From: Anaerolineae bacterium
GTDB lineage: Bacteria; Chloroflexota; Anaerolineae; Aggregatilineales; Phototrophicaceae
Reading direction: 5' to 3'
Length of the DNA stretch: 48,602 bases
Assembly (NCBI GenBank): GCA_026645945.1
Contig: JAPKMO010000023.1
Span: 1-48,602, forward strand
Part shown: positions 1-48,602 of the stretch, one piece after another
Layout: each line of letters starts with the position of its first letter
Numbering within the stretch: the first letter of the stretch is position 1
Translations under genes and position numbers: made by a program
Notes under the pieces: model-generated
Databases searched by the model: none
Seen by the model: the letters and a program-made list of their open reading frames with translations, nothing else
What the model was told of the DNA's origin: nothing

Positions 1-16
1 TGAGGAGAAAATTCGC

Positions 17-1096
17 TTGTTCGATCTAAAAGCCCATCTTAAGACGCTGGTGGAAACGCACGCGCCGTCCGGCTATGAAGGCCCCATCCGCGAGATTATC
101 CGCGCGGCCTGGCAGGGACTGACCGACCGTTTGGAGCAGGATAAACTCGGCAGCCTGATCGGCATTAAACAGGCCGAAAAGCCGCTTGACCCGCCGCGCC
201 GGGTGATGCTGGCCGCCCACATGGACGAAATCGGCCTGATGGTGCGCGACGTGATAGACGGTTTTATCGCTGTTCACCGCATCAGCGGCGTGGATCACCG
301 GCTGATGCTGGCACAGCCGGTCATTGTGCATGGCCGCCGCCCGCTGCCGGGCGTGGTCGCCAGCGTGCCGCCGCACCTGCTTTCTGCCGAAGCGCGCAAA
401 AAGTACCCGCATTTTAACGATCTGCTAATTGACGTGGGACTGCCCGCCGCCGAAGTGTCCGAACTGGTGCGAATCGGCGACCTCATCACGCCGGACGCGC
501 CGCTGCTGGAACTGAACGGCCAGCGCGTGGCCGGCAAGGCGATGGACGACCGTGCCTGCGTGGCGGCGGTTACAGTCTGCCTGGAGGCGCTGAAGGGGAT
601 GCGCCACCGCTGGGACGTATACGCCGCCGCGACCGTCCAGGAAGAAACCGGCCTCTATGGTGCGGCGACGGCGGCCTATCACATCCAGCCGGACATCGCC
701 ATCGCGTTGGACGTGACCTTTGCGCCGCAGCCCGGCGTGGACAGTGACGATACCGCCGAGATGAACGGCGGGCCGGCGGTCGGCATCGGGGCGAATTTCC
801 ACCCCCGGCTGGTCGAAAAAATCAAGGAAACGGCCAAAACCTACGAAATTAAAGTTCAGGACGACATCCTGCCCGCCGCCAGCGGTACGGACGCCTGGGC
901 AATTCAGGTGGCGCTGGCCGGCATCCCGACGGCGCTGTTGAGCATCCCGATACGCAACATGCACTCGCCGGTGGAGACGGTTGATCTGCGCGACATCGAA
1001 CGCACGGGCCGCCTGCTGGCGTTTTTCATCGCCGGCCTGGACGAAAATTTCCTCAAGGCGCTGGCCTGGGACGAGATCAAAAACAGCGCGGGTTAA
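17..1096 (+). CDS. M42 family metallopeptidase (aminopeptidase/deblocking type), paralogue 1
   Basis: A 359-residue protein of the M42 family: cytosolic dinuclear-metal aminopeptidases that usually form tetrahedral dodecamers and trim peptides. The full ligand set is visible: H68 and D70 in AAHMDEIG, D178 in AMDDR, catalytic E209 and ligand E210 in VQEE, D232 in ALDVT, and H316 in MHSPVETVD. The start is TTG at 17, because GAGGAG lies at 2-7 with good spacing and the protein begins like the other family members. The next M42 gene follows after 45 bp, so co-transcription is likely. The preferred substrate cannot be told from sequence; glycosidase annotations sometimes given to this family (FrvX) are not supported here. 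Confidence 0.93.
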   Translation: MFDLKAHLKTLVETHAPSGYEGPIREIIRAAWQGLTDRLEQDKLGSLIGIKQAEKPLDPPRRVMLAAHMDEIGLMVRDVIDGFIAVHRISGVDHRLMLAQPVIVHGRRPLPGVVASVPPHLLSAEARKKYPHFNDLLIDVGLPAAEVSELVRIGDLITPDAPLLELNGQRVAGKAMDDRACVAAVTVCLEALKGMRHRWDVYAAATVQEETGLYGAATAAYHIQPDIAIALDVTFAPQPGVDSDDTAEMNGGPAVGIGANFHPRLVEKIKETAKTYEIKVQDDILPAASGTDAWAIQVALAGIPTALLSIPIRNMHSPVETVDLRDIERTGRLLAFFIAGLDENFLKALAWDEIKNSAG

Positions 1097-1141
1097 CATC
1101 AAAAAACGTTTTTTCACGAATTATCCGTCAGGGAGGGGCGA

Positions 1142-2188
1142 ATGCTGTTACGCGAACTTTCGGAGGCTGTCGGCGTTTCGGGGCAGGAGGACGCCGTTCG
1201 CAAGCTGATTTTACCGGCCATTCAGGAGCATGTGACCGATATTCGCGTGGATGCGCTGGGCAGCATCACCGCCATTAAACCCGGCAGCGACCCAAACGCC
1301 CCGCGCGTGATGGTGGCGGCCCACATGGACGAAGTGGGTTTTATGGTCACGGGGTTTGACGGCGACGGGCTGATTCATGTCGCGCCGGTGGGCGGCATTG
1401 ACGAGCGCATCCTGCCGGGGCTGCGGGTGAAAATCGGCGAAAACCAGGTGCCAGGCGTGATCGTCTGGACGCCTATCCACAAAAGCGCCGGCAATAATAC
1501 GCCGCAAAAAATCAATGCGCTGCGGATAGACATCGGCGCCAGCAGCAAGGAAGAAGTGAACGCCAGGGTCAAACGCGGCGACCGCGTGGCCTTTGACAGC
1601 CGTTATATGGAACTGGGCGACCATATCCTGCGCGGCAAATCATTCGATAACCGCGTCGGCTGTTCGCTGCTGGTGGAGCTTTTGCAGGGCGGGCCGTACC
1701 CGGCAACGGTGCTGGCGGCTTTCACCGTCCAGGAGGAAATCGGGCTGCGCGGCGCGCGGGTGGCGGCGCGGGTTCTGAACCCGGACGCGGCGCTGGTCAT
1801 CGAAGGCACGACCGCCAACGATCTGCCCAGCCCGACCGCCGAACCGGACGACGAAGACGAAATCAACCCGGCCTGCCGCCTGGGGGCCGGGCCGGCGCTG
1901 ACGATCATGGATCGCAGCATGATAACCGACCCGCGTCTGCTGGTCTTTTTGCGCCAGACCGCCGAATCCGCCGGCATCCCTTACCAGCTTAAAACACAGC
2001 TTGGCGGCGGCACGGACGCGGGCGCGATTCACATAATGAACGGCGGCATCCCCTCGGCGGTGATTTCAGTCCCCTGCCGCTACATTCACAGCCCATCGGC
2101 CTACCTGCACCGCGACGACTACGCCAATACGCTGCGGTTGCTGCAAGCCGCGCTGAAGGGGTTTGAGCGAGGTATACTTTCGCGGTAG
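1142..2188 (+). CDS. M42 family metallopeptidase, paralogue 2
   Basis: A 348-residue M42 protein, clearly diverged from its upstream neighbour. Expected metal and catalytic residues are H61 and D63 (AAHMDEVG), D169 (SFDNRVG in place of MDDR), E198 and E199 (VQEE), and H316 (RYIHSPS). The fourth-ligand region reads VIEGTTAND, the Glu variant seen in the YsdC-like branch, rather than the Asp of paralogues 1 and 3. An acidic insert (DDEDE) follows at about 236-240. The ATG has a strong GGGAGG site a few bases upstream. It probably works as a separate homo-oligomer or mixed complex with paralogue 1; that is inference. Confidence 0.93.
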   Translation: MLLRELSEAVGVSGQEDAVRKLILPAIQEHVTDIRVDALGSITAIKPGSDPNAPRVMVAAHMDEVGFMVTGFDGDGLIHVAPVGGIDERILPGLRVKIGENQVPGVIVWTPIHKSAGNNTPQKINALRIDIGASSKEEVNARVKRGDRVAFDSRYMELGDHILRGKSFDNRVGCSLLVELLQGGPYPATVLAAFTVQEEIGLRGARVAARVLNPDAALVIEGTTANDLPSPTAEPDDEDEINPACRLGAGPALTIMDRSMITDPRLLVFLRQTAESAGIPYQLKTQLGGGTDAGAIHIMNGGIPSAVISVPCRYIHSPSAYLHRDDYANTLRLLQAALKGFERGILSR

Positions 2189-2207
2189 GCGGAACTGGAA
2201 TGTTTGT

Positions 2208-3176
2208 ATGAATAATCTACCGCTGTGGGACAGCAGCAAACCAATCGAGACGACTTTTAAACCGGATGCTGAAATTATCCTGTATGAAGGCTATGTGGGT
2301 GATTTTCTGGCCCAGATTCCCGACCGGACGGTTTCGCTGGTGGTTACGTCTCCGCCCTATAACCTGGGGAAAAGCTACGAGACGCGCACAGCTGTTGAGC
2401 ATTATCTGGAAACCCAGGCCGAAATCATCGCTCAGCTTTGCCGGGTTTTGAAGGATGACGGCAGCATATGCTGGCAGGTCGGGAATTTTGTCGAAGATGG
2501 CGAGGTGTTCCCGCTGGACATTTTTTACTACGACATCTTCAAGCGCCATAATTTGCGGCTGCGTAATCGCATCGTCTGGCATTTTGAACACGGCCTGCAC
2601 GCGCAAAAACGATTTTCGGGCCGTTATGAGATGCTGCTGTGGTTCACCAAAAGCGATCAGTACGTGTTCAATCTTGATGCGGTGCGCGTGCCGTCGAAAT
2701 ATCCCGGCAAACGCCATTACAAAGGCCCGAACCGGGGCAAACCTTCCGGCAATCCGCTGGGCAAAAACCCTTCCGATGTGTGGGAGATTTTGCTTCGGGA
2801 ATGGGAAGAAGGAATGTGGGAAATTCCGAACGTCAAAGCCAATCACCCAGAAAAAACCATCCATCCCTGCCAGTTCCCGATTGAACTGGTCGAACGCTGC
2901 GTGCTGGCGCTGACGAACGAAGGCGATTGGGTATTCGATCCGTATGCCGGCGTGGGGTCGTCGCTCATCGCGGCGCTCAAACAGGGACGCCGGGCGATGG
3001 GCAGCGAAAAAGAAGCCGATTACATCACGATAGCCCGCCAGCGAATGCAGGACTTTTTTTCCGGCGCGCTCAAAACACGCCCCATCGGTAAGGCCGTACA
3101 CCAACCGACCGGACGGGAGAAAGTCGCTCAACCGCCGGAAGAGTGGAACAATACGCCGGAGGAAGAGTCAAAGTGA
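2208..3176 (+). CDS. Type II DNA N4-cytosine methyltransferase (beta class)
   Basis: About 322 residues. The catalytic motif TSPPYNLGK (47-55) comes first and the AdoMet-binding FDPYAGVGS (243-251) lies near the C-terminus, which is the beta-class order. TSPPY, rather than DPPY, is typical of N4-cytosine enzymes such as those paired with BglII and BstYI. An in-frame TTG at 2163 would overlap the upstream gene; ATG 2208 gives a normal N-terminus and is preferred. The stop overlaps the GTG of the next gene (GTGA at 3173-3176), so methyltransferase and endonuclease are translationally coupled. It should protect host RGATCY sites at the inner cytosine; the modified base is inferred from family. 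Confidence 0.92.
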   Translation: MNNLPLWDSSKPIETTFKPDAEIILYEGYVGDFLAQIPDRTVSLVVTSPPYNLGKSYETRTAVEHYLETQAEIIAQLCRVLKDDGSICWQVGNFVEDGEVFPLDIFYYDIFKRHNLRLRNRIVWHFEHGLHAQKRFSGRYEMLLWFTKSDQYVFNLDAVRVPSKYPGKRHYKGPNRGKPSGNPLGKNPSDVWEILLREWEEGMWEIPNVKANHPEKTIHPCQFPIELVERCVLALTNEGDWVFDPYAGVGSSLIAALKQGRRAMGSEKEADYITIARQRMQDFFSGALKTRPIGKAVHQPTGREKVAQPPEEWNNTPEEESK

Positions 3177-3745
3177 TTGTTGCGGGAATTTACTCTTTCA
3201 AAGGCGGGCGAGAAGTAGTCGAAACCCGCTATGCGGCTGAACTGAACGAGATCAGACGAGTGATAACTTTGGTGGATCCCGAGGCGCACCGCACAAAAGC
3301 CAGCAAAGAAAAAACGATGCCGGGGAAAATGCTGTACAATCCGCGTTCGCTGAACCGGGCCGTCAAAGAACATTTTACCGCTGCCGGCTGGCGTAACTAT
3401 CGTGTGCCGTGTGAATACTCCAGCGATTACTACACGCCGGAATACAAGCCGGAGACCCCGCAGGTGTCGGCTTATCGGGAGATGGATTTTATCAAGAACC
3501 GTTTGGGTGTGGAGGTTCAGTTCGGCAAATACGCTTTTATGGTCTATAACGCGTGCGCCAAAATGACCATCTTTCATAATCTGGATATGATTGATGCGGG
3601 AATCGAGGTCGTGCCGGTGAAAGCCTTTGCAAAGGAAATGTCTACCGGCGTATCGTACTTCGAGCAGTTTGTCTGGGACCTGGAGCGGCGCGGTGTAGGC
3701 GATATTGATATTCCGGTGCTTATACTGGGAGTTGCAAAAGATTGA
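3173..3745 (+). CDS. BstYI/BglII-family type II restriction endonuclease
   Basis: A 190-residue protein matching the BglII/BstYI endonuclease fold along its length. Key blocks are DPEAHRTKASKEKT near the N-terminus, the catalytic stretch MDFIKNRLGVEVQFGKY, and AKEMSTGVSYFEQ. From the GTG start the catalytic residues are D105, E114 and Q116, with the same 9- and 2-residue spacing as BstYI D119/E128/Q130; the Gln in place of the usual PD-(D/E)xK Lys is a hallmark of this family. GTG at 3173 is chosen over GTG 3143 because GGAGGAAG sits 7 bp before it and the N-terminus (VIVAGIYSF) then lines up with BstYI. It overlaps the methyltransferase by 4 bp. Predicted cut site is R^GATCY, supported by site avoidance across the window. 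Confidence 0.93.
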   Translation: MIVAGIYSFKGGREVVETRYAAELNEIRRVITLVDPEAHRTKASKEKTMPGKMLYNPRSLNRAVKEHFTAAGWRNYRVPCEYSSDYYTPEYKPETPQVSAYREMDFIKNRLGVEVQFGKYAFMVYNACAKMTIFHNLDMIDAGIEVVPVKAFAKEMSTGVSYFEQFVWDLERRGVGDIDIPVLILGVAKD

Positions 3746-3754
3746 AAGGTATTT

Positions 3755-4657
3755 ATGCGTAAACTGCATTATCACCTGGTAGACGTGTTCACCGACCGGC
3801 GCTTTGGCGGCAACCCGCTGGCCGTGTTCACCAACGGGCGCGGCCTGTCCACCGAAACGATGCAGGCCATTGCCAAAGAGTTGAACCTGTCGGAAACAAC
3901 CTTCGTGCTGCCGCCGGACGACCCGGCCAACGACTGGCGCGTGCGGATTTTTACGCCCGCCGCCGAAATGCCGATGGCCGGACACCCGACGGTTGGCACA
4001 TCCTTCGTGCTGGCGTGGGAACATCTGGTCGGCGTTTCGGAACAGCAGCCGGTCATTCGCCTGGAAGAAAATGTGGGGTTAATCCCGGTCACGTTCACGT
4101 TCGCGGACGGCCAGCCGGCGACGGCGACCATGCAGCAGCTAACGCCGCAGTTCGGCCCGGTGTTTGACGACCGCGACACGATAGCCGCCATGCTCTCGCT
4201 GGAGCCGGCGGCGCTGGATGATTACCCGCTGCAAGTGGTGTCGTGTGGGACGCCGTTTTTCATCGTGCCGCTTAAAACGCTGGACGCGGTGCGGAACATC
4301 CGCCTGCGGATAGACATCTGGGAGCGCGCGCTGGCGAACTTCGCCGCGTCCAAAGTGTTCGTGTTTACGCGACAGACCGAATATCCCGGCTCGACCGTTC
4401 ACTCGCGCATGTTCGCGCCCAGCCTGGGCATCCGCGAAGACCCGGCCACCGGCGCGGCCAGCGGCCCGCTGGGCTGTTATCTGGTGAAATATGGGCTGGC
4501 GGCGGGTAATCCCGCGTTAATCGTCAGCGAACAGGGCGTGGAAATGGGCCGCCCCAGTTTCATCCACATCCGCATCGAGCAAACCGGCGGGCAGATCAGC
4601 GGCGTGTTTGTCGGCGGGCGGTGCGTGTATGTTGGTCAGGGACAGATTGAGATTTAA
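3755..4657 (+). CDS. PhzF-family isomerase-like protein
   Basis: A 300-residue member of the PhzF/diaminopimelate-epimerase fold superfamily. The start reads VFTDRRFGGNPLAVF, a typical first strand and turn; the conserved acid is E47 (LSETTFV). GHPTVGTSF near residue 77 and REDPATGAASGPLGCYL near the C-terminus are the usual second-lobe signatures. The gene starts 9 bp after the endonuclease stop with AAGG upstream, so it may share its transcript, but nothing links its chemistry to restriction. No phenazine genes are nearby, so it is better called PhzF-like than a phenazine enzyme. Substrate unknown. Confidence 0.9.
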   Translation: MRKLHYHLVDVFTDRRFGGNPLAVFTNGRGLSTETMQAIAKELNLSETTFVLPPDDPANDWRVRIFTPAAEMPMAGHPTVGTSFVLAWEHLVGVSEQQPVIRLEENVGLIPVTFTFADGQPATATMQQLTPQFGPVFDDRDTIAAMLSLEPAALDDYPLQVVSCGTPFFIVPLKTLDAVRNIRLRIDIWERALANFAASKVFVFTRQTEYPGSTVHSRMFAPSLGIREDPATGAASGPLGCYLVKYGLAAGNPALIVSEQGVEMGRPSFIHIRIEQTGGQISGVFVGGRCVYVGQGQIEI

Positions 4658-4668
4658 GGAAAGCTGTC

Positions 4669-5121
4669 ATGGCTAAGGACAAGATGCCGGATTTGAAAAA
4701 TTCGCAGCCACCGCGTATGTTGGATGTCAAAAAATTTACGGAAGACTCCAACATGGAGCCGCCGCCGTTCCAGGCATGGCGGCACGAGGGTTTTGTTGTT
4801 GTGTACCCGGAGGGGGCCCCCGGATGTATGGCCGCCAGCCTGGATGGGGAAACGTTTATCCAGCGTGTCGGCCCGCCAGCGGTGACGTTCGCTATGATTG
4901 ATGCGCTGTACGGCATCAAGCTTAAGGGGGAACGCCTGTTTCCGCCCACGTATCGAAATCTGAGTGAAGACGAGTTTTTTAAACAGGGAATGGCGGCGCT
5001 CGCCAGTTACATGGCTTTGCGCGAGGTCGGCGACGATGACGAAGAAGTGTATGAGGATATATACCAGGCGGCGCGGGAAGATGTTTTGAGCCAACTCATC
5101 AAACCGCCGAAAAAAGATTAA
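4669..5121 (+). CDS. Hypothetical protein, acidic C-terminal half
   Basis: A 150-residue soluble protein that I do not recognise. It has a polar N-terminus, a middle with short hydrophobic strands (GFVVVYPEG, VTFAMIDALYG), and an acidic helix-prone tail (EVGDDDEEVYEDIYQ) ending in PPKKD. There is no signal peptide, membrane segment or cysteine pair. The ATG is preceded by AAGGAAAG, 11 bp after the PhzF-like stop and 21 bp before the third M42 gene, so it sits inside a tight same-strand series. Codon use and GC look native. Function unknown. Confidence 0.75.
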   Translation: MAKDKMPDLKNSQPPRMLDVKKFTEDSNMEPPPFQAWRHEGFVVVYPEGAPGCMAASLDGETFIQRVGPPAVTFAMIDALYGIKLKGERLFPPTYRNLSEDEFFKQGMAALASYMALREVGDDDEEVYEDIYQAAREDVLSQLIKPPKKD

Positions 5122-5142
5122 CGCTATAAGGAGCGCCATATC

Positions 5143-6135
5143 GTGAAAGAGCTGATACGTAAACTGGTCGAAGCCTGGGGGCCGTCTGGTTATGAACATC
5201 ATGTGCGCGAAATCATCCGGGCGGAAGTAACCGGCCTGGCCGATGAAATCACGGTAGACCCGCTCGGCAACCTGATCTGCCGGGTGGGGCAGGGCGGCAA
5301 AAAAGTGATGGTCGCCGCCCATATGGACGAAATCGGCGTGATGGTCACGTTCGTGGAAAAAAGCGGTTATCTGCGCTTCGCGCCTATCGGCGGGCTGCTG
5401 CACAGCACGCTGCTGGGCAGCCGCGTGCGCTTCGAGGACGGCACAATCGGCGTCATCGGTGTGCATGATGTCTGGGGCGAAAGCCGCACCCACGTGCCTG
5501 ATCTCGATTCGTTTTATATTGACGTGAGCGATGGGAACGGCAGCGGCAGCGTCCAGCCCGGAAACCCGGCGGTTTTCTGGCGAAACATGGAAGAACGCGG
5601 CACGCGCCTGATCGCTAAATCCATGGACGACCGGGTGTGCTGCGCCATCGCTGTCGAAACCATGCGCCGCCTGAACAAACAGACGCCGCATGAGGTGTAT
5701 TTTGTGTTTACCGTGCAGGAAGAAGTTGGCCTGCGCGGGGCGCGCCCGGCGGCCTACAGCGTCAACCCGGATATTGGCATCGCCCTGGATGTGACCAGCA
5801 CCGGGGATGAGATCAAAAACAGCAAAATGGCCGTCAAACTGGGCGGCGGGGCGGCCATCAAACTGCACGATGTCGGCCTGGTCGTGCCGCCTGCCGTCCG
5901 CGACTGGATGATCGAACGCGCGCAGGCCGACGGCATCCCGTACCAGTTGGAACTGCTCGACCTGGGTTCAACCGACGCTGCTGGGATTCAGACCGCGCGC
6001 GCCGGCGTGCCAAGCGGCTGCATCTCTGTGCCGTGCCGCTTCGTGCATACCACCAGCGAAACGGTAGACCTCAACGATGTGCAGGCCAGCGTAGATTTAC
6101 TGGCCGGATTGTTGAGCCATCCGATTCCATTGTGA
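5143..6135 (+). CDS. M42 family metallopeptidase, paralogue 3
   Basis: A 330-residue M42 aminopeptidase. Ligands and catalytic residues are H60 and D62 (AAHMDEIG), D163 (SMDDR), E193 and E194 (VQEE), D216 (ALDVT) and H302 (RFVHTTSE). It resembles paralogue 1 more than paralogue 2 in keeping MDDR and the Asp ligand. The GTG start has AAGGAG about 10 bp upstream. It is the last gene of the first block: an 80-bp repeat and then a strong terminator follow. Three diverged M42 genes within 6 kb, interrupted by a restriction-modification pair, suggest local duplication followed by insertion of the pair; that is inference. Confidence 0.93.
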   Translation: MKELIRKLVEAWGPSGYEHHVREIIRAEVTGLADEITVDPLGNLICRVGQGGKKVMVAAHMDEIGVMVTFVEKSGYLRFAPIGGLLHSTLLGSRVRFEDGTIGVIGVHDVWGESRTHVPDLDSFYIDVSDGNGSGSVQPGNPAVFWRNMEERGTRLIAKSMDDRVCCAIAVETMRRLNKQTPHEVYFVFTVQEEVGLRGARPAAYSVNPDIGIALDVTSTGDEIKNSKMAVKLGGGAAIKLHDVGLVVPPAVRDWMIERAQADGIPYQLELLDLGSTDAAGIQTARAGVPSGCISVPCRFVHTTSETVDLNDVQASVDLLAGLLSHPIPL

Positions 6136-6153
6136 ATATCCGGTTTTGATTAA

Positions 6154-6233
6154 GAGTTTATCCGTAAACCCACCAGACAGTGGGCTTAAGCCCACTGTTC
6201 TGCTATCAGATCAATCGGTTTATGGATAGGTTC
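6154..6233 (-). repeat. 80-bp MITE-like element, copy A
   Basis: One of five 80-bp copies in the window, here in reverse orientation. The ends are imperfect inverted repeats (GAGTTTATCCGTAAACC against GAACCTATCCATAAACC) around a central palindrome AGTGGGCTTAAGCCCACT. It is flanked by TAA on both sides (6151-6153 and 6234-6236), which is TTA in element orientation and fits a 3-bp target duplication. It has no coding capacity. Being between a stop codon and a terminator, its transcript could fold into a long hairpin. Confidence 0.9.
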
Positions 6234-6247
6234 TAAAGGGGTTTTAC

Positions 6248-6276
6248 CGGGTGAGTCTGGCTCACCCGTTTTTTAT
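6248..6276 (+). terminator. Rho-independent terminator
   Basis: A perfect 8-bp stem, CGGGTGAG and CTCACCCG, with loop TCTGG, followed directly by TTTTTTATT. It ends the transcript of the M42/restriction-modification block. Confidence 0.9.
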
Positions 6277-6317
6277 TATGCCTGAAGCGTTAAGGGCGGG
6301 CGAGGCGGTTCAGGGTC

Positions 6318-6323
6318 TATAAT
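6318..6323 (+). promoter_or_regulatory. Probable -10 box for the histidine kinase gene
   Basis: A perfect TATAAT 34 bp before the ATG of the kinase gene and downstream of a terminator. No good -35 is seen at the right distance, as with most candidate promoters in this window. Confidence 0.5.
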
Positions 6324-6356
6324 CCAGAAGTGGGATAATTAAGGATATTTTTCCTT

Positions 6357-7409
6357 ATGTCAGATCGTGACGAACCGCGCGAATTGGTGCCTGATGATGG
6401 GCTGGCGGCGGTTTTCCTGGCCGTGCCGGATGCGCTGCTGGTATTCAGCCGCGAGGGCCGCGTGCGGGCGGCGAACCCGGCGGCGCAGCGTTTTTTGGAT
6501 GCTGACCCAACCGGCTGGAGTCTGGAGCGCCTGGCCGCGCTGGACGGCGTTTTTGCACCCCTGCAGGACTTCCTGGATGACCTGCACCATCAGCGTTCCG
6601 CCTGGACGGCCCAACTGCATTCGGCGCGGCGCAAGCGCGACCTGGCGGTTGTTGCGTCGGCCTGGGATGGCGGCAGCGTGGTTTTACTGCACGACATCAC
6701 CGATCTGCTCGACCGGGGCCGCTTTCGAGACGAGATGCTGCGGCTGGCGTCTCATGATCTGCGCGCGCCGCTGGCGCTGGTGATGAACTACTGCGACCTG
6801 ATCGCCGCCGAACTGCCGGACGCCTCGCCGCGCGTGACGCAGTACCTGGACGTGATTCGCCGGTTCACCGGGCGCATGTTGAATCTGCTGGACGCCATCC
6901 TGCGGATAGATCAGATACGATTATCTCCGCTTGAACTGCACGAGCAAGTCAACCCGGCTGAACTGGCGCGGTTGGCGGTTGAGAATATGATATGGCCTGC
7001 CGACCAGAAAAACCAGCAGCTTGAGGCCGATGTGCAGGCCGGGACGGAGCTGCTGACGGCTGACCCGCTGCTCATCCAGGAAGCGATGGAAAATCTGATC
7101 GGCAACGCGATAAAATATACGCCGGATGGCGGGCATATCGCCGTCCGCGCCCATGTCGAGGCCGGACGTTTTCACTTCGTGGTGGAGGATAACGGGGTCG
7201 GCTTCGGCCAGGAACACCTGCCGCACATTTTCGAGGCTTTTTACCGGGCGAAGCAGCCGGGTACGGAACAGGTCGAAGGCAGCGGCCTGGGGCTGAACCT
7301 GGTCAAAACGGCCATTGAGCGGCATCTGGGTGAAGTGTGGGTGGAAAGCCGGGAAGGCGAGGGCAGCCGGTTTGGGTTCTGGCTGCCGCTTCAATCAACA
7401 AAGGAATAA
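6357..7409 (+). CDS. Cytosolic sensor histidine kinase with PAS-like domain
   Basis: A 350-residue two-component kinase with no membrane segment. An N-terminal PAS-like region (about 15-120) is followed by the phosphoacceptor H133 in LASHDLRAPL. The ATPase domain has the N box (N246, N250 in ENLIGNAIKY), G1 box DNGVGF (278-283), F box IFEAFYRA (291-298) and G2 box GSGLGLNL (308-315). All catalytic motifs are intact. AAGGA lies 11 bp before the ATG. No receiver gene is adjacent; the next gene, an esterase, starts 3 bp after the stop. The partner response regulator is unknown. Confidence 0.93.
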   Translation: MSDRDEPRELVPDDGLAAVFLAVPDALLVFSREGRVRAANPAAQRFLDADPTGWSLERLAALDGVFAPLQDFLDDLHHQRSAWTAQLHSARRKRDLAVVASAWDGGSVVLLHDITDLLDRGRFRDEMLRLASHDLRAPLALVMNYCDLIAAELPDASPRVTQYLDVIRRFTGRMLNLLDAILRIDQIRLSPLELHEQVNPAELARLAVENMIWPADQKNQQLEADVQAGTELLTADPLLIQEAMENLIGNAIKYTPDGGHIAVRAHVEAGRFHFVVEDNGVGFGQEHLPHIFEAFYRAKQPGTEQVEGSGLGLNLVKTAIERHLGEVWVESREGEGSRFGFWLPLQSTKE

Positions 7410-7412
7410 AAA

Positions 7413-8078: not shown

Positions 8079-8081
8079 ACC

Positions 8082-9316: not shown

Positions 9317-9419
9317 TGACAGTGGGCTTAAGCCCACTGTCCGCTTAAGCCCACTGTCCGCTTAAGCCCACTGTCCGCTTAAGCCCACTGCCAGTGTGCA
9401 AATTAAGCTGGTTTATGTA
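9317..9419 (-). repeat. CTAG-flanked repeat element with 4 x 17-bp tandem array, copy 1
   Basis: A 103-bp element bounded by CTAG at 9313-9316 and 9420-9423. Reading the minus strand, about 30 bp beginning TACATAAACCAGCTTAAT is shared with the element at 34412. Then comes an array of four 17-bp units (9324-9391, plus-strand unit CCGCTTAAGCCCACTGT), ending in the palindrome AGTGGGCTTAAGCCCACT that is also the core of the 80-bp MITE. Both flanking convergent genes end on the bordering CTAGs. Confidence 0.85.
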
Positions 9420-38677: not shown

Positions 38678-38720
38678 CGCCATCATTAGCACAGGTGTTC
38701 AAGTTAAAGGGCGCTCACCA

Positions 38721-40100: not shown

Positions 40101-40133
40101 GGAACGAGGGATGAGTGCCGAGTGCTGAGTAAA
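40099..40133. repeat. Heptanucleotide tandem repeat
   Basis: Five period-7 units GAGGAAC, GAGGGAT, GAGTGCC, GAGTGCT, GAGTAAA right at the radA stop. The units recur in reverse at 35313. The rest of the gap to 40251 shows nothing further. Confidence 0.75.
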
Positions 40134-40251
40134 ATTGTGCTAGGATAGGGGTGAGGGTAATTTCTCAGACGCGGCAGTTCGACGGTCAATGTGCGTTAAT
40201 GTGTTACCAGCCGCGCTTGTTTCGGGCGTAGGTAGATAGAATGGAATGACG

Positions 40252-40815: not shown

Positions 40816-40854
40816 CCGGCATCAGTTATCAACGGCGATCACGAGGCTTCTGTA

Positions 40855-42024
40855 ATGGCGAACAGCGTTTACTTCAGCGATACCAGCAGCGAACTGCAAG
40901 ATTTACGTCCGGTCATCGTCGAGCGCATTCAGGCGGCGGGGCTGATTCCGGTCTGGCTGGAGGAAACCGAGCGCCATTCGCCGGACATGCTGGAACACCT
41001 GCGGCGGAAAATCGGGTCGGCAACGGCTTTCATCAGCCTGGTCACTTACCGGCGCGCCTGGGAGACGGCAGGCGGCAGGGCGCTGGCGGAAGTCGAATAC
41101 GAGATCGCGCGCGAGTACGGCAAGCCGCTGGCCGTCCTGCTGCCCAGGCCGGGCAGCGAAATGGCGATGTACCTGCGGCGGCGAGCCTTCAACCAGTCCG
41201 GCGAACAGCGCGAGGCGCAGGAAGCCTTCTGGGGGCGGCTGCTGGACGACGGCGCGGCCACCACCTTCGATGACGAAACCGATCTGCTGCTCAAACTGGA
41301 ACGCATTCTGGAAAGCTGGTCGGCGGTCGAACCGCTTGTCCCCCAGGCCGCGTCCGCAATGCCGCCGCCCCCGGCGCCGGCGCCCGCCGCGCCCGGCCAG
41401 GCCCGCGAAACCGCGCGCGGTTTGGCCCTGGGCGAGCCGGAAATCGAAACGCTGGCAGAGCGCATCGCCGCTAAAACCGCCGCGCGGCTGGATGACTTGC
41501 AAACCCGCCGCCAGGCCGACCTGGCCGAACAGGCGCTGAAGGTTAACGACGCGCTGCGCGTGTGGCCGGGCGAACTGGTGTTTGGCCGGCCCTCAAAAGG
41601 GCGGCAGTTCCAGAGCGATGTGTTTGTGATTATGCCGTTCGCAGCACAGTTCGCCGGGGTTTATGCCGATGTTATCAAACCGCTGGCGGCGGAACTGGGG
41701 CTGACGGTTTTACGCGGCGACGAACTTTCCTCCTCGCGTGGTTCGATCATGGAAGAAGTATGGGCGGCGCTGAATGCCTGCCGCTTCGTGATTGCCGAAA
41801 TCACCGGCGGCAACGACAACGTATTTTACGAACTGGGTATCGCGCACACTCTGAACAAACCGGCGCTGCTCATTACCCAGGCCGCCGCGCCGGAAAACGT
41901 GCCGTTCGACATCCGCCACCTGCGTTACATCGTCTACAGCGCCCAGGACGGTGCGAAACTGCGCGACGATCTGCGGACGGCCATCACGCGGCTGCTGACG
42001 GAACTTTCTGACGGGGGTATGTAG
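40855..42024 (+). CDS. DUF4062 / nucleoside-2-deoxyribosyltransferase-like (TIR-like) fusion protein
   Basis: A 389-residue cytosolic protein with two Rossmann-like halves. Residues 3-100 match DUF4062 (SVYFSDTSSELQDLRPVIVE, ATAFISLVTYRRAWE, ALAEVEYEIAREYGKPLAVL). Residues 165-180 are a Pro/Ala linker, and 195-230 a probable coiled coil. Residues 252-389 resemble the TIR-like/NDT-like domain (DVFVIMPFAAQFAGVY, CRFVIAEITGGNDNVFYELGIAHTLNKPALLI) with conserved E326 in FYELG, the usual catalytic Glu position for NAD or nucleoside cleavage. Such architectures occur in immune and conflict proteins. No sensor partner is adjacent; the broken Uma2 gene lies 39 bp upstream. Function is inferred. Confidence 0.78.
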   Translation: MANSVYFSDTSSELQDLRPVIVERIQAAGLIPVWLEETERHSPDMLEHLRRKIGSATAFISLVTYRRAWETAGGRALAEVEYEIAREYGKPLAVLLPRPGSEMAMYLRRRAFNQSGEQREAQEAFWGRLLDDGAATTFDDETDLLLKLERILESWSAVEPLVPQAASAMPPPPAPAPAAPGQARETARGLALGEPEIETLAERIAAKTAARLDDLQTRRQADLAEQALKVNDALRVWPGELVFGRPSKGRQFQSDVFVIMPFAAQFAGVYADVIKPLAAELGLTVLRGDELSSSRGSIMEEVWAALNACRFVIAEITGGNDNVFYELGIAHTLNKPALLITQAAAPENVPFDIRHLRYIVYSAQDGAKLRDDLRTAITRLLTELSDGGM

Positions 42025-42030
42025 CAGCCG

Positions 42031-42582
42031 CTATTCGCCGCGCGCCGACTCCAACCGCGCGCGCGCCCGCGCCAGCCAATCCGGCGCGCCGTCATCCAGG
42101 CCGCTGAGAAACAGCAGCACGCGCCGGGCGATGATGGCTTCCACCTCATCCGGGTCGTGTTCTACCAGATCAAACAGGTAGGGTACGTGGCGTTGGTCGC
42201 CCAGGACGGCCAGCAGCGCCGCCCCCGCGCCGATGCGGATTTCGGCGTTGGTTTTCTGGTTGGCGATCTCCAGAAATTCGGCGGTGCTGTGCCATCCGGG
42301 TATGGCGTCCAGGTCGGCGGCCAGCGATTCCCGGAACGACAGCCCCCACCCTGCCAGAACTGCCTCGCTTTCCGCGATGACAGCCGCCAGCGCGGCGACG
42401 ACTGCCCGCGCCATTTCGCCGGGGGCAGCACGCGCCGCCGCATCCTGCGCGATGGTCTGGGCGTCGGCATCGCTCAGGTCGAGTCCCTGGGCGGCCAGTG
42501 GGCGTTTAAACTGTTTGAGCAGGACGGCCACCAGGGTTTCAAACGGCCAGGTGGCCGCCGGGCTGGTACGGTCGAAAGCCAT
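42031..42582 (-). CDS. Hypothetical helical-repeat (HEAT-like) protein
   Basis: About 183 residues from ATG 42582, 14 bp after the SET gene stop. Strongly alpha-helical and Ala/Leu-rich. Residues near the C-terminus, IRIGAGAALLAVLGDQRHVPYLF then EVEAIIARRVLLFL, resemble paired helices of HEAT-type repeats. There is no signal peptide, Cys or catalytic motif. A longer frame to 42765 overlaps the SET gene and is not used. It probably belongs to the transglutaminase-SET transcript. Function unknown. Confidence 0.7.
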   Translation of the reverse strand: MAFDRTSPAATWPFETLVAVLLKQFKRPLAAQGLDLSDADAQTIAQDAAARAAPGEMARAVVAALAAVIAESEAVLAGWGLSFRESLAADLDAIPGWHSTAEFLEIANQKTNAEIRIGAGAALLAVLGDQRHVPYLFDLVEHDPDEVEAIIARRVLLFLSGLDDGAPDWLARARARLESARGE

Positions 42583-42596
42583 CGGCGCGGGCCGTT

Positions 42597-43148
42597 TCAA
42601 GCCGTTTCGGGCAGCGGGTGCGCGCCGTTGCTGCGCGCTGCGGCGTGCTGCCGTTCGATGCGGCGCTGGAGGTAGGGCGAAAAATGCCCCTGATAGCGCG
42701 CTTGCAGCTCCGGCAGTTTCCAGTCGTCGCCGGTCACGCGGCCCCGGCAGTTGGGCGCGCCACACCGGCAGTCGAATTCATCGTAGGGGCTGCCGTCGGA
42801 CATGGCGTAGTCGTAACAGATTTCCTCGCCAGGCTGAATATCCCGCAGCGCCACCAGCGCGATCTGGCCGCTGAGGCCCGCGTTTGGGTCGCAGGAATGG
42901 TTGATGAAGTCAGAAGGTTCGGTGCGGGCGGGGGCCAGGAACAAATCGTCCTCCACCTGAAGGCTGTGGCTTTGCGCCAGCGGCGGCAGCCGGCGCAGCG
43001 CCTCCAGGTTCACCACTATGCCCGTCCACACCACCAGCAGTTCCCCGGCGGCGATGGCCTGGCGGGCAAAAACACCAAAAGCGCCCTTCCGTTCCAGCGG
43101 GCGAACTTCCAGGCGCGGCGATAGGTAAGATGCGGGTTGGTCGTCCAA
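42597..43148 (-). CDS. SET-domain protein with post-SET zinc motif
   Basis: About 183 residues: a compact bacterial SET domain, the fold of protein-lysine methyltransferases. Blocks are KGAFGVFARQAIAAGELL (AdoMet side), FINHSCDPNAG (pseudoknot with AdoMet-binding N-H), GEEICYDYAMS (catalytic Tyr) and a post-SET DCRCGAPNCRG zinc cluster. The start is taken as TTG 43148, because AAGGAG is 5 bp before it; GTG at 43154 overlaps that site. The protein that would be methylated is unknown. It is second in a three-gene minus-strand series. Confidence 0.88.
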   Translation of the reverse strand: MDDQPASYLSPRLEVRPLERKGAFGVFARQAIAAGELLVVWTGIVVNLEALRRLPPLAQSHSLQVEDDLFLAPARTEPSDFINHSCDPNAGLSGQIALVALRDIQPGEEICYDYAMSDGSPYDEFDCRCGAPNCRGRVTGDDWKLPELQARYQGHFSPYLQRRIERQHAAARSNGAHPLPETA

Positions 43149-43201
43149 GATCACTCCTTGTATTTAACAGCGCGGCATACAGGATAACGGCGCGGGCCGG
43201 A

Positions 43202-44059
43202 TTAAGGCTGCCAGCCGGGCGGCACGCGCAGGCGGTCATCGTTTTCGTACAGGGCGCGTACTTCAGGGAAAACCGCGTTGCCCGCCAGCGAAAGCTCGGC
43301 CAGGCGGTCAATTTGTTCGGCGTCTGCGGCGGCCTCCTGGTCGCTGGCGGCGATCCAGCCCCAGTCATCCCAGGGCAGGATTTCGACCTTGTTGAGCGCC
43401 AGAAAGTCGCGCACGACGTTGCCCCGGATGAACGCCAGGCCATGCATGTCGAAAATGCCAAAACGGGTGGGGTCGGCGCCCTCGCGGCGGGCCATCAGCC
43501 AGGCTTTGCCGCCGGTGATGAACTGGTCGCGCGGCACGTCGAAGGTGTCGAAGCCGACGCCCAGCGCCTGCTGCTGGAAGGCATCAAGCTGGGCGTCCAC
43601 CAGAAACCAGCGCGCCAGCTGCGTATCCCAGATTTCGCATACCCAGTGATCTTCGTAATGGTCGGGCAAAAAATACGCGCCGAAACCGGCCCGCGCCCGT
43701 GCCGGCACGCCCTGATGCCGCAGCATGGCGCACAGCATCACCGAAAAATCGCGGCAGTTGCCGACCAGCCGCCGGTCGAGCGGGCGTTCTTCGGTCAGCG
43801 GGCGGTCGTCCAGTTCCAGCAGGCGTTTGAGCTTTTTTGTCACCGGGCGCAGGTTAACCTCCTGCTTGCGCTCCTCGGTCAGCGTGAGGCCGTACCGTTC
43901 CGCCCAGAAGATATGCGCCATCAAACCCTGAACGATTTTAACCAGGGACGGCAGATCGGGCGGCAGGCGGTCGAAGTGGGCGGCGTATTCGCCTGGATCG
44001 GTCATCAGGCCGGGCGCGGTGTAATAGGTCTGGGGAGTGTCGGAAACCATAACAGGCAC
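43202..44059 (-). CDS. Transglutaminase-like cysteine protease-fold protein
   Basis: A 285-residue cytosolic protein with a transglutaminase-like core. The catalytic triad is C102 (VGNCRDFSVML), H138 (YEDHWVCEIWD) and D155 (WFLVDAQLD). The region RHQGVPARARAGFGAYFLP between them is typical. There is no signal peptide. GTG 44059 or ATG 44050 is the start; the sequence does not decide. The SET gene follows after about 50 bp on the same strand. Peptidase, amidase or cross-linking activity are all possible. Confidence 0.87.
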   Translation of the reverse strand: MPVMVSDTPQTYYTAPGLMTDPGEYAAHFDRLPPDLPSLVKIVQGLMAHIFWAERYGLTLTEERKQEVNLRPVTKKLKRLLELDDRPLTEERPLDRRLVGNCRDFSVMLCAMLRHQGVPARARAGFGAYFLPDHYEDHWVCEIWDTQLARWFLVDAQLDAFQQQALGVGFDTFDVPRDQFITGGKAWLMARREGADPTRFGIFDMHGLAFIRGNVVRDFLALNKVEILPWDDWGWIAASDQEAAADAEQIDRLAELSLAGNAVFPEVRALYENDDRLRVPPGWQP

Positions 44060-44120
44060 TTTCTCTACGGGAGATCGTAATACGCCGGCGACGGCGGCCA
44101 GGTTGGATTCTACACCGGCT

Positions 44121-45116
44121 TCAGCCGCCGGACAACCACCGCTGGACGGCCATCACGCCGCGCAGGTTGCGCTCGAACTCGCTGTCACGGGTGCCGGAAA
44201 GTTCCACGTCCACCGATGGGATCCCCTGGCCGTCGAACCAGTTGGGTGCCGTACCGGTGACCTGGTAGGCGGTGAAGGGCTGGCCGTAGGGATAGCCCGC
44301 CGCCTCGCCCAAAACGGCAGCCAGCGTCCACGATACGCCGCCGCCGGGACAGTCCCCGGCGAAAACGCCGCGCGCGGCGCTGTGATAAAAAATGGCCGCC
44401 GCCGGGCGCAGTTCGTTTGCCAGGGCGGCCAGCGCCCGCGTCTCCGGCTCGGAAAACGGCCCCGCGCCGGGGTTGACCTGCCGGCTGCGCCAGTACGCCT
44501 GCGCCGACCATTCGCAGCTCCAGTTGCGGTTGAGGTCTACCCCGCTGGCGTTAAAACGCCCGTCGGCCACCCGCCCCTGGGCGAATCCATCCGGGTTGGC
44601 AGCCGGAATCAGCACCAGAGTTATGTCCGGCAGCACGTCGCCGGGGCTGCGCTCGAAGTGGGCGACCAGTTCGTTGAGCAGGGTGATGGTATTGGCTTCG
44701 TAACCGGCGTGGATGCCGCCCACCAGCAGCAGCGTTTGCCGCCCGCTGCCAAAACGCCAGGCCAGGATGTCCCGCCCGCCGGCGGACTGGCCGACGGTGA
44801 AAACATGGCGCGGACGGGCGGACAGGTCGGCGGCGGCGATTCCTACGGACGGATTGGCCGGCAGCGGTGTGATGGGCGGCGGCGCGGGCGTGTCGGACGC
44901 CGGCGGCAGAATGATGCCGCGCGGCGTGTGGGTGGCGCGCGGCGCGGCTAGCACAGCGGGCGTAGGCGTGCCGGTAGGGACTTCTGTTAAGACTAAAGTC
45001 GGCTGGCAAGCGGCGGCAGATACGAGTATGATTAACGCAAAGCGGTTATATACCGGCTGCCCCGTGTGCCGGCGCCGAAGGTGGTGTATGATGTCTCGAA
45101 TCCAGGCTGCCTTCAT
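44121..45116 (-). CDS. M14-family zinc carboxypeptidase, lipoprotein
   Basis: A 331-residue exported M14 peptidase. A long n-region precedes [12 protein letters not shown] with a lipobox Cys, then a Thr/Pro spacer. The zinc motif is in [12 protein letters not shown] (HxxE), with [14 protein letters not shown] and GVDLNRNW; the third ligand His is in AIFYHSA and the catalytic Glu in [14 protein letters not shown]. In this frame the only start before the lipobox is ATG 45116, so its 5' end overlaps the divergent lipoprotein gene by 29 bp. Likely role: trimming peptides or murein stems outside the cell. It contains one of the two GGATCC sites in the window. Confidence 0.88.
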
Positions 45117-46152
45117 CTTCGTACTGCTGCTCCTGGCGGCTTGCCAGCCTCAGGCGGAGGAGATCGTTGATCTGCCGACGCTGGCGGTGCTGCCCAGCCT
45201 GACGCCCAGCAACACGCCGACGTTCACGCCGACGGCGACCGATACGCCCACGCCGACGGCCACTTTTACGCCGACGGCGACCGATACGCCCACGCCGACG
45301 GCCACTTTTACGCCGTCGCTGACGCCGACCTTCACCATCACGCCGACGTTTACCATCACGCCCACGTTCACACCAACCAATACCCCGACGCCGACGGAGA
45401 CCTCCACTGCTTCGCCAACGCCAAGTACGCCCCAGATTATCACATTTACGGCCAGCGCCACCAGTGTCGCGCCCAACACGAGCATCACGCTGACGTGGCA
45501 GACGATTTCCGACACGGCGCGTATTGACCAGCTCAACCAGCAGGGGGCCGTCGTGCAGACGTTTTCGGTCGTGCCGTCCGGCCAGCTTCCGGTATCGGTT
45601 CCGGGCAACCTGGGGCGGCTGGTGGTCTACCGGCTGGTGGCGATACGCGGCGGTCAGGAAGCCACCGCCTCCGTGCCGATCACGATACAGTGTTCCATCG
45701 GCTGGTTTTTCGGCAACGAGTTCGCCCCGCCGGGTTCGGGGTGTCCGACGGCGGTGGGCGCTATCGGGCAGGGGGCGTTCCAGTCGTTCGAGCGCGGGTT
45801 TATGGTGTACGTCAATGCCAACGGCCTGAACACCATTTACGGCTTGCAGGCGCAGAACAACCTGTACATCGGTTATACCAACGGCTGGGATGGCACGACC
45901 AGCTATACCTGTTTCGGCACGCCGCCGGGCGGGCTGCTGGCCCCGCAGGAATTGTTCGCCTGGGCGTTCTGTAATACCAACGCGCCTATCGGCTCGTGGA
46001 CTGGGGCGCTGGGGTGGGCCACCTCCGGCCTCAACCGGGACCAGCGCACCATCCAGTTTGAAGAAGGCACGGGCGCGTTTTACATTGACGCGCCGGTGGG
46101 CGTGTTCCGCCTCAGCGGCTCGCAGACCCGCACCTGGACGAAAATCAAGTGA
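45088..46152 (+). CDS. Lipoprotein with Thr/Pro repeat spacer and C-terminal beta domains
   Basis: A 354-residue exported protein. Signal peptide [15 protein letters not shown] ends in a lipobox Cys. Residues about 45-115 are a Thr/Pro spacer made of repeats, including two tandem 42-bp units (45226-45309, [14 protein letters not shown]) and TFTITP repeats. A PKD/Ig-like segment follows ([20 protein letters not shown]), then an unknown C-terminal domain with four Cys ([35 protein letters not shown]). AAGG lies before ATG 45088. The spacer would hold the C-terminal domain away from the membrane. Ligand unknown. Confidence 0.83.
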
Positions 46153-46168
46153 GCAGCAGGCGGCCAGC

Positions 46169-46738
46169 GTGAACCCGACCCTGATTCTGTTCGCCGGAAT
46201 GCCCGGCAGCGGCAAAACTACGCTGGCGCGGATGCTGGCGCGCGAGTTAAACATCCCGGTATTCGCCAAAGACCGCATCCAGCGCGTGCTGCGCGACCAC
46301 AACCTGGCGGACGCCTCCAGCGGCGATGGTTATTACATCATCCTGGATATGGCCGATGAGCAGCTTTCGCTGGGTTTGAGCGTCATCCTGGACGCGACCT
46401 TCCCGCTCGATCACTTCCGCACCGTCGCCAGTGAGATCGCCGCCCGCCACAGCGCCAATTTCGCCGCCATTTACTGCACCTGCTCCGACGATACGGTGTG
46501 GCGGGAGCGCATGACCCACCGCGTCCAGTATGTGCCGGGCTGGAAGCCAGTCGGCTGGGACGACGTGGTGCGGATGCGCGATTATTACCAGCCCTGGAAC
46601 GATAACGCGCTGGTGGTGGATTCGCTGCACTTGCCGGAGGAGAACTTCCCGAAGGTGCTGGAATATGTTCAGCAGGCCGGGCCGCGCGTGTACACGGCAG
46701 TGCAGCCCCTGCCGGAGCGCGACCGACGCAAACGTTAA
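46169..46738 (+). CDS. P-loop kinase (AAA_33-type)
   Basis: About 189 residues from GTG 46169; no other start is available before the P-loop. Walker A is FAGMPGSGKTTLARML. Further blocks are NIPVFAKDRIQRVL, VILDATFPLDHFRTVAS and AIYCTCSDDTVWRERMTHR, typical of the AAA_33/zeta-like kinase group that phosphorylates small molecules or sugar nucleotides. The protein is soluble and starts 17 bp after the lipoprotein stop. Without a nearby antitoxin it is not assigned as a toxin. Substrate unknown. Confidence 0.85.
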   Translation: MNPTLILFAGMPGSGKTTLARMLARELNIPVFAKDRIQRVLRDHNLADASSGDGYYIILDMADEQLSLGLSVILDATFPLDHFRTVASEIAARHSANFAAIYCTCSDDTVWRERMTHRVQYVPGWKPVGWDDVVRMRDYYQPWNDNALVVDSLHLPEENFPKVLEYVQQAGPRVYTAVQPLPERDRRKR

Positions 46739-46798
46739 GACTGCCGCTTGGCTGCAACGCGCGGCCCTCTTTTTCGTATACCGAATAGTGTACACTAA

Positions 46799-46878
46799 GA
46801 ACCTATCCATAAACCGATTGATCTGATAGCAGAACAGTGGGCTTAAGCCCACTGTCTGGTAGGTTTACGGATAAACTC
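46799..46878 (+). repeat. 80-bp MITE-like element, copy E
   Basis: Same element with perfect TAA duplications (46796-46798 and 46879-46881). The left end GAACCTATCCATAAACC is the variant shared with copy A. Confidence 0.92.
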
Positions 46879-46885
46879 TAAGCAC

Positions 46886-46924
46886 CCTCACCCCTAACCC
46901 CTCTCCATTGGAGAGGGGGTGAGG
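46886..46924. repeat. Hairpin-forming C/G-rich repeat
   Basis: CCCCTCTCC-ATT-GGAGAGGGG with outer arms CCTCACC/GGTGAGG directly after MITE copy E. No T-tract follows. It is probably a dispersed repeat, with a possible RNA hairpin ahead of the lipoprotein gene. Confidence 0.6.
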
Positions 46925-46988
46925 TCATCGAAAACCGTTAGACAGTGGTTTAAACCGTGCTGCGTTTCACTTGCGGAAGGATGACGTT

Positions 46989-47705
46989 GTGCGACGTTTT
47001 GTCATTGTGTTACTGCTGCTCAGTTTTGGATGCACCGGCGCGCCTACCGAAGCGCCGCCCGACCCGCAGCAGCTTTTGACTCAGGCGGCAGCCAATATCC
47101 GTCAGACCGAGACATTTCGGATGACGGTCGAGCGCACCGGCAGAGAATACTACATCAACACCGATTACGGATATGCCGAATTCCGGCGGGCGGACGTGCA
47201 GTACGCCGCGCCGGATACCATCCAGGCCGGGGTGCGCGTGGTGGCCGCCGGCCTGCCGATTGACCTGGAAATTTTTTTCCGGGGGCAGGATCAATGGCTG
47301 CGCGGCATCTGGACGAATAATGCCTGGGTTCGGCTGGCCTTTGTGCCGGGCTTCACCCCGGCGGCGCTGATGGCGGCGGAAACCGGCTTTCAGGCGGCCA
47401 TCAAGGCGCTGACCGGCTTGCAGATGATCGGCAGCGAGCAGTTGGTGGACGGCACGCCGGTTTACCACATCAAAGCCGAGGCGGCCGGCGAGGACGTTTC
47501 GGCTTTTATGGCCGGTTTGATTCAGGTCACGGGGCAGGTGGTGGCGGATGTGTTCATCCACCGCGAATCGCTGCTGCCGGTGCGGTTCGAGATCGTCCAG
47601 CCGGAAGGCGCGGGCGCGGAGGATGCCGAACCGACGGTCTGGGAGATTGAGGTCTACGACTTCGACCAGCCCGCCCGCCTGGACGACCCGGAAGCGGCCT
47701 CATGA
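46989..47705 (+). CDS. LppX/LprG-like lipoprotein
   Basis: About 238 residues from GTG 46989, which has GGAAGG 8 bp before it; TTG 46971 is an alternative. The signal peptide VRRFVIVLLLLSFGC ends in the lipobox Cys. The mature part begins with AAANIRQTETFRMTVERTG, the usual first helix and strand of LppX/LprAFG-type lipid-binding lipoproteins, and continues with APDTIQAGVRVV and alternating strands. In mycobacteria this fold carries lipids across the envelope. The stop overlaps the ATG of the transporter gene, a pairing also known for LprG and its MFS partner, which supports lipid export. Confidence 0.8.
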   Translation: MRRFVIVLLLLSFGCTGAPTEAPPDPQQLLTQAAANIRQTETFRMTVERTGREYYINTDYGYAEFRRADVQYAAPDTIQAGVRVVAAGLPIDLEIFFRGQDQWLRGIWTNNAWVRLAFVPGFTPAALMAAETGFQAAIKALTGLQMIGSEQLVDGTPVYHIKAEAAGEDVSAFMAGLIQVTGQVVADVFIHRESLLPVRFEIVQPEGAGAEDAEPTVWEIEVYDFDQPARLDDPEAAS

Positions 47706-48602
47706 CCACAGTAACAGGACAATCGAAGGCACATCCGGCGCGGCCCTGGGTCGTGCTGGCGTTGATCTGCGTCCCGGTGTTCATCGGGTCGCTGGATTTA
47801 ACGATTGTTTCGGCCTTTCTGCCGGAAATCATCGTCGGCCTGGGGCTGCCGCTGCAAACCTCGCTGGACGATTCGGCCTGGATTGTCAGCGGGTATCTGC
47901 TGGCATATGCTGTCAGCATGACGTTTATGGGGCGCATCAGCGACCTGCTGGGGCGGCGCTGGGTGTACGTAACCTGCCTGCTGATTTTTATCGCCGGCTC
48001 GGTGCTGGTGGCAACGGCGCACCTGGGGCCGACCGATGCGCTGTACACGATTTTTCGCCGCCTGGGGCAGCGCCCCGACCGGGAGAGCGTGACCCTGCTG
48101 GCGATCATCCTGGGGCGCGTGGTGCAGGCATTTGGCGCGGGCGCGCTGGTGCCGGTCAGCCTGGCGTTGGTGGGCGACCTGTTCCCGGCGGCGCGGCGGG
48201 CGCAGCCGTTGGGCGTGATCGGCGCGGTGGATACGCTGGGCTGGGTGCTGGGCCACCTGTACGGCGGCCTGCTGGTGAACTTTTTTGCCACCCACCGGGA
48301 TGGCTTCCGGCAGTTTCTCGACAGCCTGGGTTTAAGCTACTGGCCGTCCCCGGACTGGCGGACGCTGTTCTGGATCAATGTGCCGGTGACGCTGGCGGCG
48401 CTGGCGCTGGTGCTGTGGGCGCTGCGCCGCGTGCCGATGCACCGCGCTGCCGGGCGCTTCGACTGGGCCGGGGCGCTGCTCATCACCGGGGCGCTGGTGG
48501 GGCTGATCGTCGGGCTGGGCGCGAACATCGAGGTTTCCAGCGCGGCGGCCACTTTCCAGGAATTAACGCGCATCCCGTCCTATGCCGGGCCGGTGCTGCT
48601 GC
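47702..48602 (+). CDS. DHA2-type MFS transporter (partial, cut by window end)
   Basis: The first 300 codons of a major-facilitator protein, open to the window edge. The start PWVVLALICVPVFIGSLDLTIVSAFLPEII and the loop GRISDLLGRRWVYVT (family motif A between TM2 and TM3) identify it; AWIVSGYLLAYAVSMT and VVQAFGAGALVPVSLALVGD fit the 14-helix DHA2/EmrB-QacA branch. The Asp in SLDLTIV within TM1 is the usual DHA2 position. An insert of about 30 residues (AHLGPTDALYTIFRRLGQRPDRESV) precedes TM4. The ATG overlaps the lipoprotein stop by 4 bp, so the two are coupled. Confidence 0.9.
   Translation, partial: MTTVTGQSKAHPARPWVVLALICVPVFIGSLDLTIVSAFLPEIIVGLGLPLQTSLDDSAWIVSGYLLAYAVSMTFMGRISDLLGRRWVYVTCLLIFIAGSVLVATAHLGPTDALYTIFRRLGQRPDRESVTLLAIILGRVVQAFGAGALVPVSLALVGDLFPAARRAQPLGVIGAVDTLGWVLGHLYGGLLVNFFATHRDGFRQFLDSLGLSYWPSPDWRTLFWINVPVTLAALALVLWALRRVPMHRAAGRFDWAGALLITGALVGLIVGLGANIEVSSAAATFQELTRIPSYAGPVLL

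Follow-up and report, generated by a model that had tools for sequence, protein, structure and literature searches.

The window analysed here is a stretch of 48,602 nucleotides, contig C155 of the draft genome G000 (4.71 Mb in 254 contigs, 92.6% complete) of an Anaerolineae bacterium of the Chloroflexota. It carries a restriction-modification (R-M) cassette of two genes, bordered by a peptidase gene and a PhzF-like gene. The features considered are:

1..48602, no strand: the whole window, with RGATCY 2, AGATCC/GGATCT 0, and a general depletion of 6-bp palindromes
1142..2188, + strand: M42 peptidase gene, the left border of the R-M cassette, which adjoins the PhzF gene in G008, G001, G007 and G010
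2211..3176, + strand: DNA methyltransferase, PF01555 (Pfam E 3.6e-49; motif IV TSPPYN)
3143..3745, + strand: BstYI-like restriction endonuclease, PF09195 (Pfam E 6.5e-23; BstYI 1sdo E 2.9e-37)
3274..3279, no strand: GGATCC within the endonuclease gene (exact count)
3755..4657, + strand: PhzF-like gene, the right border of the cassette
44219..44224, no strand: GGATCC within a zinc carboxypeptidase-like ORF (44121-45116, reverse strand)

The methyltransferase open frame begins at 2163, with a likely start at the ATG at 2211, and the gene overlaps that of the endonuclease by 34 bases. The endonuclease matches PF09195 with 81.7 bits (cut-off 26) over positions 3-163 of the 163 in the profile. It is homologous to BstYI (PDB 1sdo/1vrr/2p0j) over residues 14-198 of 200 (131.7 bits, E 2.9e-37), although about 14 BstYI residues are absent from the alignment. 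BglII, the AGATCT enzyme, belongs to the same Pfam family, but the match is far weaker (30.9 bits, E 2.3e-6) and the site avoided here is wider than AGATCT. BstYI cuts RGATCY, as work on another PF09195 enzyme also implies. R.Nph3I of phage NrS-3, a PF09195 nuclease, has been shown to cut RGATCY (PMC10734518). Given the likeness to BstYI and the published activity of a PF09195 enzyme, the resident pair very probably has RGATCY specificity. The R.Nph3I/M.Nph3I system differs in being phage-borne, in having a Campylobacterota host and in that M.Nph3I makes m6A (PMC10734518).

Homologous loci occur in several phyla. Among the best 80 of 196, 50 are Chloroflexota by their record titles, and the nearest nuclease homologue in named genomes, from an Aggregatilineales MAG (L001), is 75% identical. 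A methyltransferase match is present in all 81 loci, the window included, and has the same orientation in 80. The methyltransferase may make either m4C or m6A. The solved structure nearest to it is that of M.RsrI (E 6.6e-29), an m6A enzyme; the PvuII m4C enzyme matches at E 2.4e-8, and the SPPY motif is one read as m4C. Published modification at RGATCY is m6A in several cases, m4C being described in Microcystis panniformis. Record L046, from a Microcystis sp., carries a nuclease 63% identical to that of the window.

The first-pass annotation drew attention to a GGATCC inside the endonuclease gene. The site is indeed there, at 3274, but a special role for it was rejected: RGATCY is found in 13 of the 81 homologous nuclease genes at a density of 0.32/kb, compared to 0.31/kb in the flanks, and the codon position of the window's GGATCC is unique among the 81. 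The gene for R.Nph3I also contains GGATCC (PMC10734518), which looks like coincidence; RGATCY was not enriched across the nuclease genes of this family.

The R-M pair interrupts an operon. PhzF matches were obtained in 12 of 17 genomes of the genus, and eight congener loci were compared. In G000, G005 and G013 the pair sits between the M42 peptidase and PhzF genes. In G008 a gap of 6 bases, counting the stop codon, separates these two genes, and in G001, G007 and G010 they likewise adjoin with no cassette between them. About 0.7 kb of DNA separates them in G012, and the expected neighbours are absent at the PhzF locus of G014. The R-M copy and the PhzF gene of G004 lie on different contigs, and G002 has an R-M copy and no PhzF match. 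The uninterrupted operon is likely the ancestral form, which would make the cassette an insertion. The closest R-M copy, that of G005 (L221:4131-5648), is 90-97% identical by piece, each gene being split into two overlapping pieces by frameshifts or assembly errors.

Exact recounting of GATC contexts in the window gave the figures first reported: 171 in all, with 53 RGATCR, 54 YGATCY, 62 YGATCR and 2 RGATCY. Both RGATCY sites are GGATCC, at 3274 and 44219; AGATCT, AGATCC and GGATCT are each missing, again as first noted. The size of the expectation varies with the null chosen. The expectation of about 46 sites in the first-pass annotation is reproduced as the odds ratio 53*54/62, but it falls to 18 if the two flanking bases are independent, against which the 2 observed give a Poisson P of 2.8e-6. 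Synonymous-codon shuffling of 38 long ORFs that do not overlap one another (38,715 bases; chosen by length, gene calls uncurated) gave an expectation of 34.4 +/- 4.9, compared to the single RGATCY present in the ORFs. For AGATCC and GGATCT together, none were seen against 6.8 expected (P 0.001), or 17.9 +/- 3.6 under codon shuffling, where 0 of 500 shuffles reached 0.

The window is short of other palindromes as well, including TGATCA (0 observed, 20 expected), CGATCG (2/19), TGGCCA (0/30), CCGCGG (1/39) and many more. In a sample of the genome consisting of the window and L082-L101 (448.6 kb, or 9.5% of the total), 34 of the 58 6-bp palindromes that could be tested were below half of expectation, compared to 13 of 1,998 non-palindromic hexamers, and pooled palindromes stood at 0.40 of expectation. 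Since most testable 6-bp palindromes are depleted, the scarcity of AGATCT and GGATCC is weak and non-specific evidence. The non-palindromic members of RGATCY are more informative. In the same sample AGATCT was seen 8 times against 74 expected and AGATCC with GGATCT 10 times against 60; AGATCC was the 7th most depleted of the 1,998 non-palindromic hexamers, and the remaining non-palindromic GATC contexts showed no depletion. In the whole genome, AGATCC on both strands was seen 99 times compared to an expectation of about 590 derived from context odds (AGATCA, CGATCC, CGATCA), a ratio of 0.17.

When the 16 palindromic cores were compared in a 400 kb sample, the A..C form was at or above 0.9 of expectation in 12; it was low for GATC (0.19) and TCGA (0.05) and more mildly so for GGCC (0.57) and AGCT (0.72). 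Around BstYI-like genes, GATC was the lowest of the 16 cores both in 50 Chloroflexota loci (0.56) and in 29 loci of other phyla (0.76), sorted by record titles with L029 excluded. It is highly improbable that RGATCY scarcity is a by-product of general 6-bp palindrome avoidance or of composition alone. The breadth of palindrome depletion speaks for such an origin, as does the weakness of that depletion (0.92, 0.89 and 0.74) in G034, G027 and G032, which do not avoid RGATCY; it leaves unexplained the ratio of 0.17 for a non-palindrome and the near-normal A..C form of most cores. Because AGATCC/GGATCT is strongly depleted, the degenerate site is what is avoided. Avoidance of RGATCY, wider than AGATCT or GGATCC as first claimed, is real and genome-wide.

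RGATCY is one among at least six degenerate sites avoided in this genome. Counted as observed/expected, the non-palindromic members of GDGCHC (26/468), CYCGRG (4/102), CCRYGG (6/151) and RTCGAY (7/150) are avoided more than those of RGATCY, and those of GGYRCC (94/315) and CCWWGG (16/58) somewhat less. YGATCR, RGCGCY, RCCGGY, GRCGYC and others are not avoided. Avoided words agree with Type II specificities: GDGCHC is cut by Bsp1286I, CYCGRG by AvaI, CCRYGG by BtgI/DsaI and GGYRCC by BanI. RTCGAY is given in one article as a restriction-site sequence of Bifidobacterium breve UCC2003 (PMC12592239). The AvaI/BsoBI family PF09194 was considered as the source of CYCGRG avoidance and rejected, there being no match in the window's genome; in 61 genomes searched, three matched part of the profile, none of them within the genus. 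Panels differ in relatives, as judged from 38-80 kb samples: RCCGGY is avoided in G001 and G054, and GRCGYC in G004. No tested degenerate site was clearly avoided in the sample of G034. Pooled palindromes show almost no depletion in G034 (L203-L206) and G027 (L261-L266), of the same family, and the pooled ratio ranges over 0.21-0.74 in ten other genomes, the window's included. The first-pass annotation held that avoidance independently predicts the specificity of the enzyme. This is not supported, since the genome avoids no fewer than five further degenerate sites, four of which more strongly, and AGATCC ranks 7th among the non-palindromic hexamers; the specificity itself is favored by a nuclease far closer to BstYI than to BglII.

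The association between the system and avoidance, a partial one, was followed in 61 genomes. Their completeness is 74-100%, so that an absent gene may in some cases reflect missing sequence. A PF09195 match was obtained for 14 of them, the nuclease by sequence in 15 and the methyltransferase (E <= 1e-30) in 17. A close copy was defined as a nuclease at least 49% or a methyltransferase at least 65% identical to that of the window, and depletion as an AGATCC ratio of 0.33 or below. All 12 genomes with a close copy were depleted over the whole genome (0.017-0.327, median 0.174), compared to 19 of 44 without the system (0.014-1.52, median 0.423). The close-copy group includes G005, with both genes in pieces, G042, with its nuclease in pieces, G048, with the methyltransferase only, and G052, whose methyltransferase match has one stop. 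Five genomes with divergent, BglII-type or broken systems were set apart: G016 (0.76), G019 (0.085), G026 (0.52), G027 (1.10) and G032 (0.92). G026 meets the identity cut-off, but as a broken copy in pieces.

The comparison of close copy with none gives a rank p of 0.002 and a Fisher p of 5e-4, ancestry not corrected for. These become 0.005 and 0.003 when G026 is added to the close group, 0.04 and 0.02 when all five set-apart genomes are added, and 0.017 and 0.002 when G005, G042 and G048 are dropped. Within the genus, 5 close-copy genomes against 11 without give 0.01 and 0.03; the initial set of PF09195 carriers, taken ahead of the regrouping, did not differ significantly from the remaining genomes (p 0.13). 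All these p-values are descriptive, since the groups were drawn after the ratios were seen, ancestry was uncorrected, and 5 of the 44 system-free genomes are nearly free of GATC and make poor controls (19 of 39 are depleted without them). In G021, G029, G030 and G035 the four GATC-context counts total only 415-1,542 per genome, compared to 6,790-45,866 elsewhere except in G033 (2,262), and GATC itself seems to be avoided in the four. The locus set and the genome set are not fully independent, because some organisms are probably common to both (L001 and G013:C305; L063 and G022:C35).

The first-pass annotation took the avoidance to imply long exposure of the lineage to this enzyme. That the resident enzyme brought it about by long residence, so that the avoidance reports its specificity, is quite unlikely. 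The agreement between enzyme family and avoided word and the association across relatives are in its favor, and of the four congeners whose operon is unbroken G010 (0.516) and G007 (0.626) are the less depleted. The other two, G008 (0.249) and G001 (0.211), are depleted without the cassette, which indicates that depletion exists apart from this copy, though not everywhere. So are the 19 system-free genomes counted above, and G042, with its fragmented nuclease gene, still stands at 0.055. CYCGRG (4/102) is also scarce here with no match to PF09194, the sole AvaI-related family searched. Conversely, the distant homologues in G027 and G032 (nuclease plus a methyltransferase at 54-60% identity) are accompanied by no RGATCY avoidance, and G016 is likewise not depleted. 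The possibility that distant PF09195 homologues go with avoidance of AGATCT instead found no clear support in 120-140 kb samples (18/27 in G027, 28/31 in G032, 25/43 in G016). Depletion where this cassette is lacking would be most simply caused by earlier or other RGATCY systems, for which the copies in G004 and G002 speak.

Other systems of that specificity, from unrelated nuclease families or phage-borne, might also impose the avoidance at present in place of the BstYI-like pair. G023 (0.014), G044 (0.077) and G011 (0.081) are strongly depleted with no BstYI-like system detected. A search of 30 loci around PF01555 genes in seven genomes and of a G054 locus, with 18 distinct neighboring ORFs scanned, named ScaI-, DpnII-, EcoO109I- and CfrBI-like and HNH nuclease families among those ORFs. 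In genomes that avoid RGATCY and have no BstYI-like system, candidate pairs of a methyltransferase and a partner are conserved: in G023 and G006 (L237/L241), in G006 and G011 (L234/L235) and in G008, G011 and G006 (L248/L251/L254). No candidate partner could be linked to RGATCY through its family or a solved relative. The L237/L241 partner matches DpnII weakly (E 2.7e-6 to 6.8e-6), and no solved relatives were found for three of the partners. Present-day systems of this kind are accordingly a doubtful source of the avoidance. In G054 (L227:2873-4423) the genes for a ScaI-like nuclease (PF09569) and for a methyltransferase with 35-39% identity to the window's are arranged tail to tail.

The reading we favor, and consider probable, is that RGATCY became scarce through restriction-site avoidance, the legacy of a turnover of Type II R-M systems in this Chloroflexota lineage, the resident system matching one of the avoided words. 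By an established principle, unmethylated sites that escape protection would be cut, and site-removing mutations would accumulate under selection over long exposure. RGATCY-specific systems may have been gained and lost within this order, with the BstYI-like pair at 2211-3745 as the one now resident, and the loss of most 6-bp palindromes and of no fewer than five further degenerate Type II sites could be due to the same process. The scarcity is then a known kind of long-term footprint and not proof of the enzyme's action, because other words and enzyme-free relatives are depleted too.

Orthodox Type II systems have been described as causing avoidance of their sites, to a degree that depends on their lifespan, and as leaving 'traces of lost R-M systems' in relatives without them (Rusinov et al., 2015; PMC4687349). 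The same article finds avoidance to be common to related genomes whatever systems they encode (PMC4687349). The present case is alike in that a Type II site is underrepresented in the host and in system-free relatives; it differs in that the site is degenerate, its non-palindromic half was tested alone, and the bacteria are uncultured Chloroflexota. The article's main text, searched by term, yielded no RGATCY, BstYI or Chloroflex- (PMC4687349), and in an open-access library nothing was found that pairs RGATCY with avoidance, or palindrome avoidance with Chloroflexi or Roseiflexus. Avoidance and the traces of lost systems are already known, and the present case adds a degenerate site, a general palindrome depletion and an uninterrupted-locus comparison.

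An avoided word adjoining a matching R-M system is not proof that this system made it. Testing a degenerate site through its non-palindromic members, together with relatives whose locus is uninterrupted, is a way to tell the two apart. We give an even chance to the broader proposal that genomes in this order are a readable archive of restriction exposure, in which the panel of avoided sites is genome-specific and outlives the enzymes; the panel here would be RGATCY, GDGCHC, CYCGRG, CCRYGG, RTCGAY and GGYRCC, and the signal would be almost wholly lost in some relatives such as G034. The avoided-word panel could help predict the specificities of uncharacterized R-M systems in uncultured bacteria and, if the genomes are such an archive, past and unseen specificities could be listed from bare sequence.
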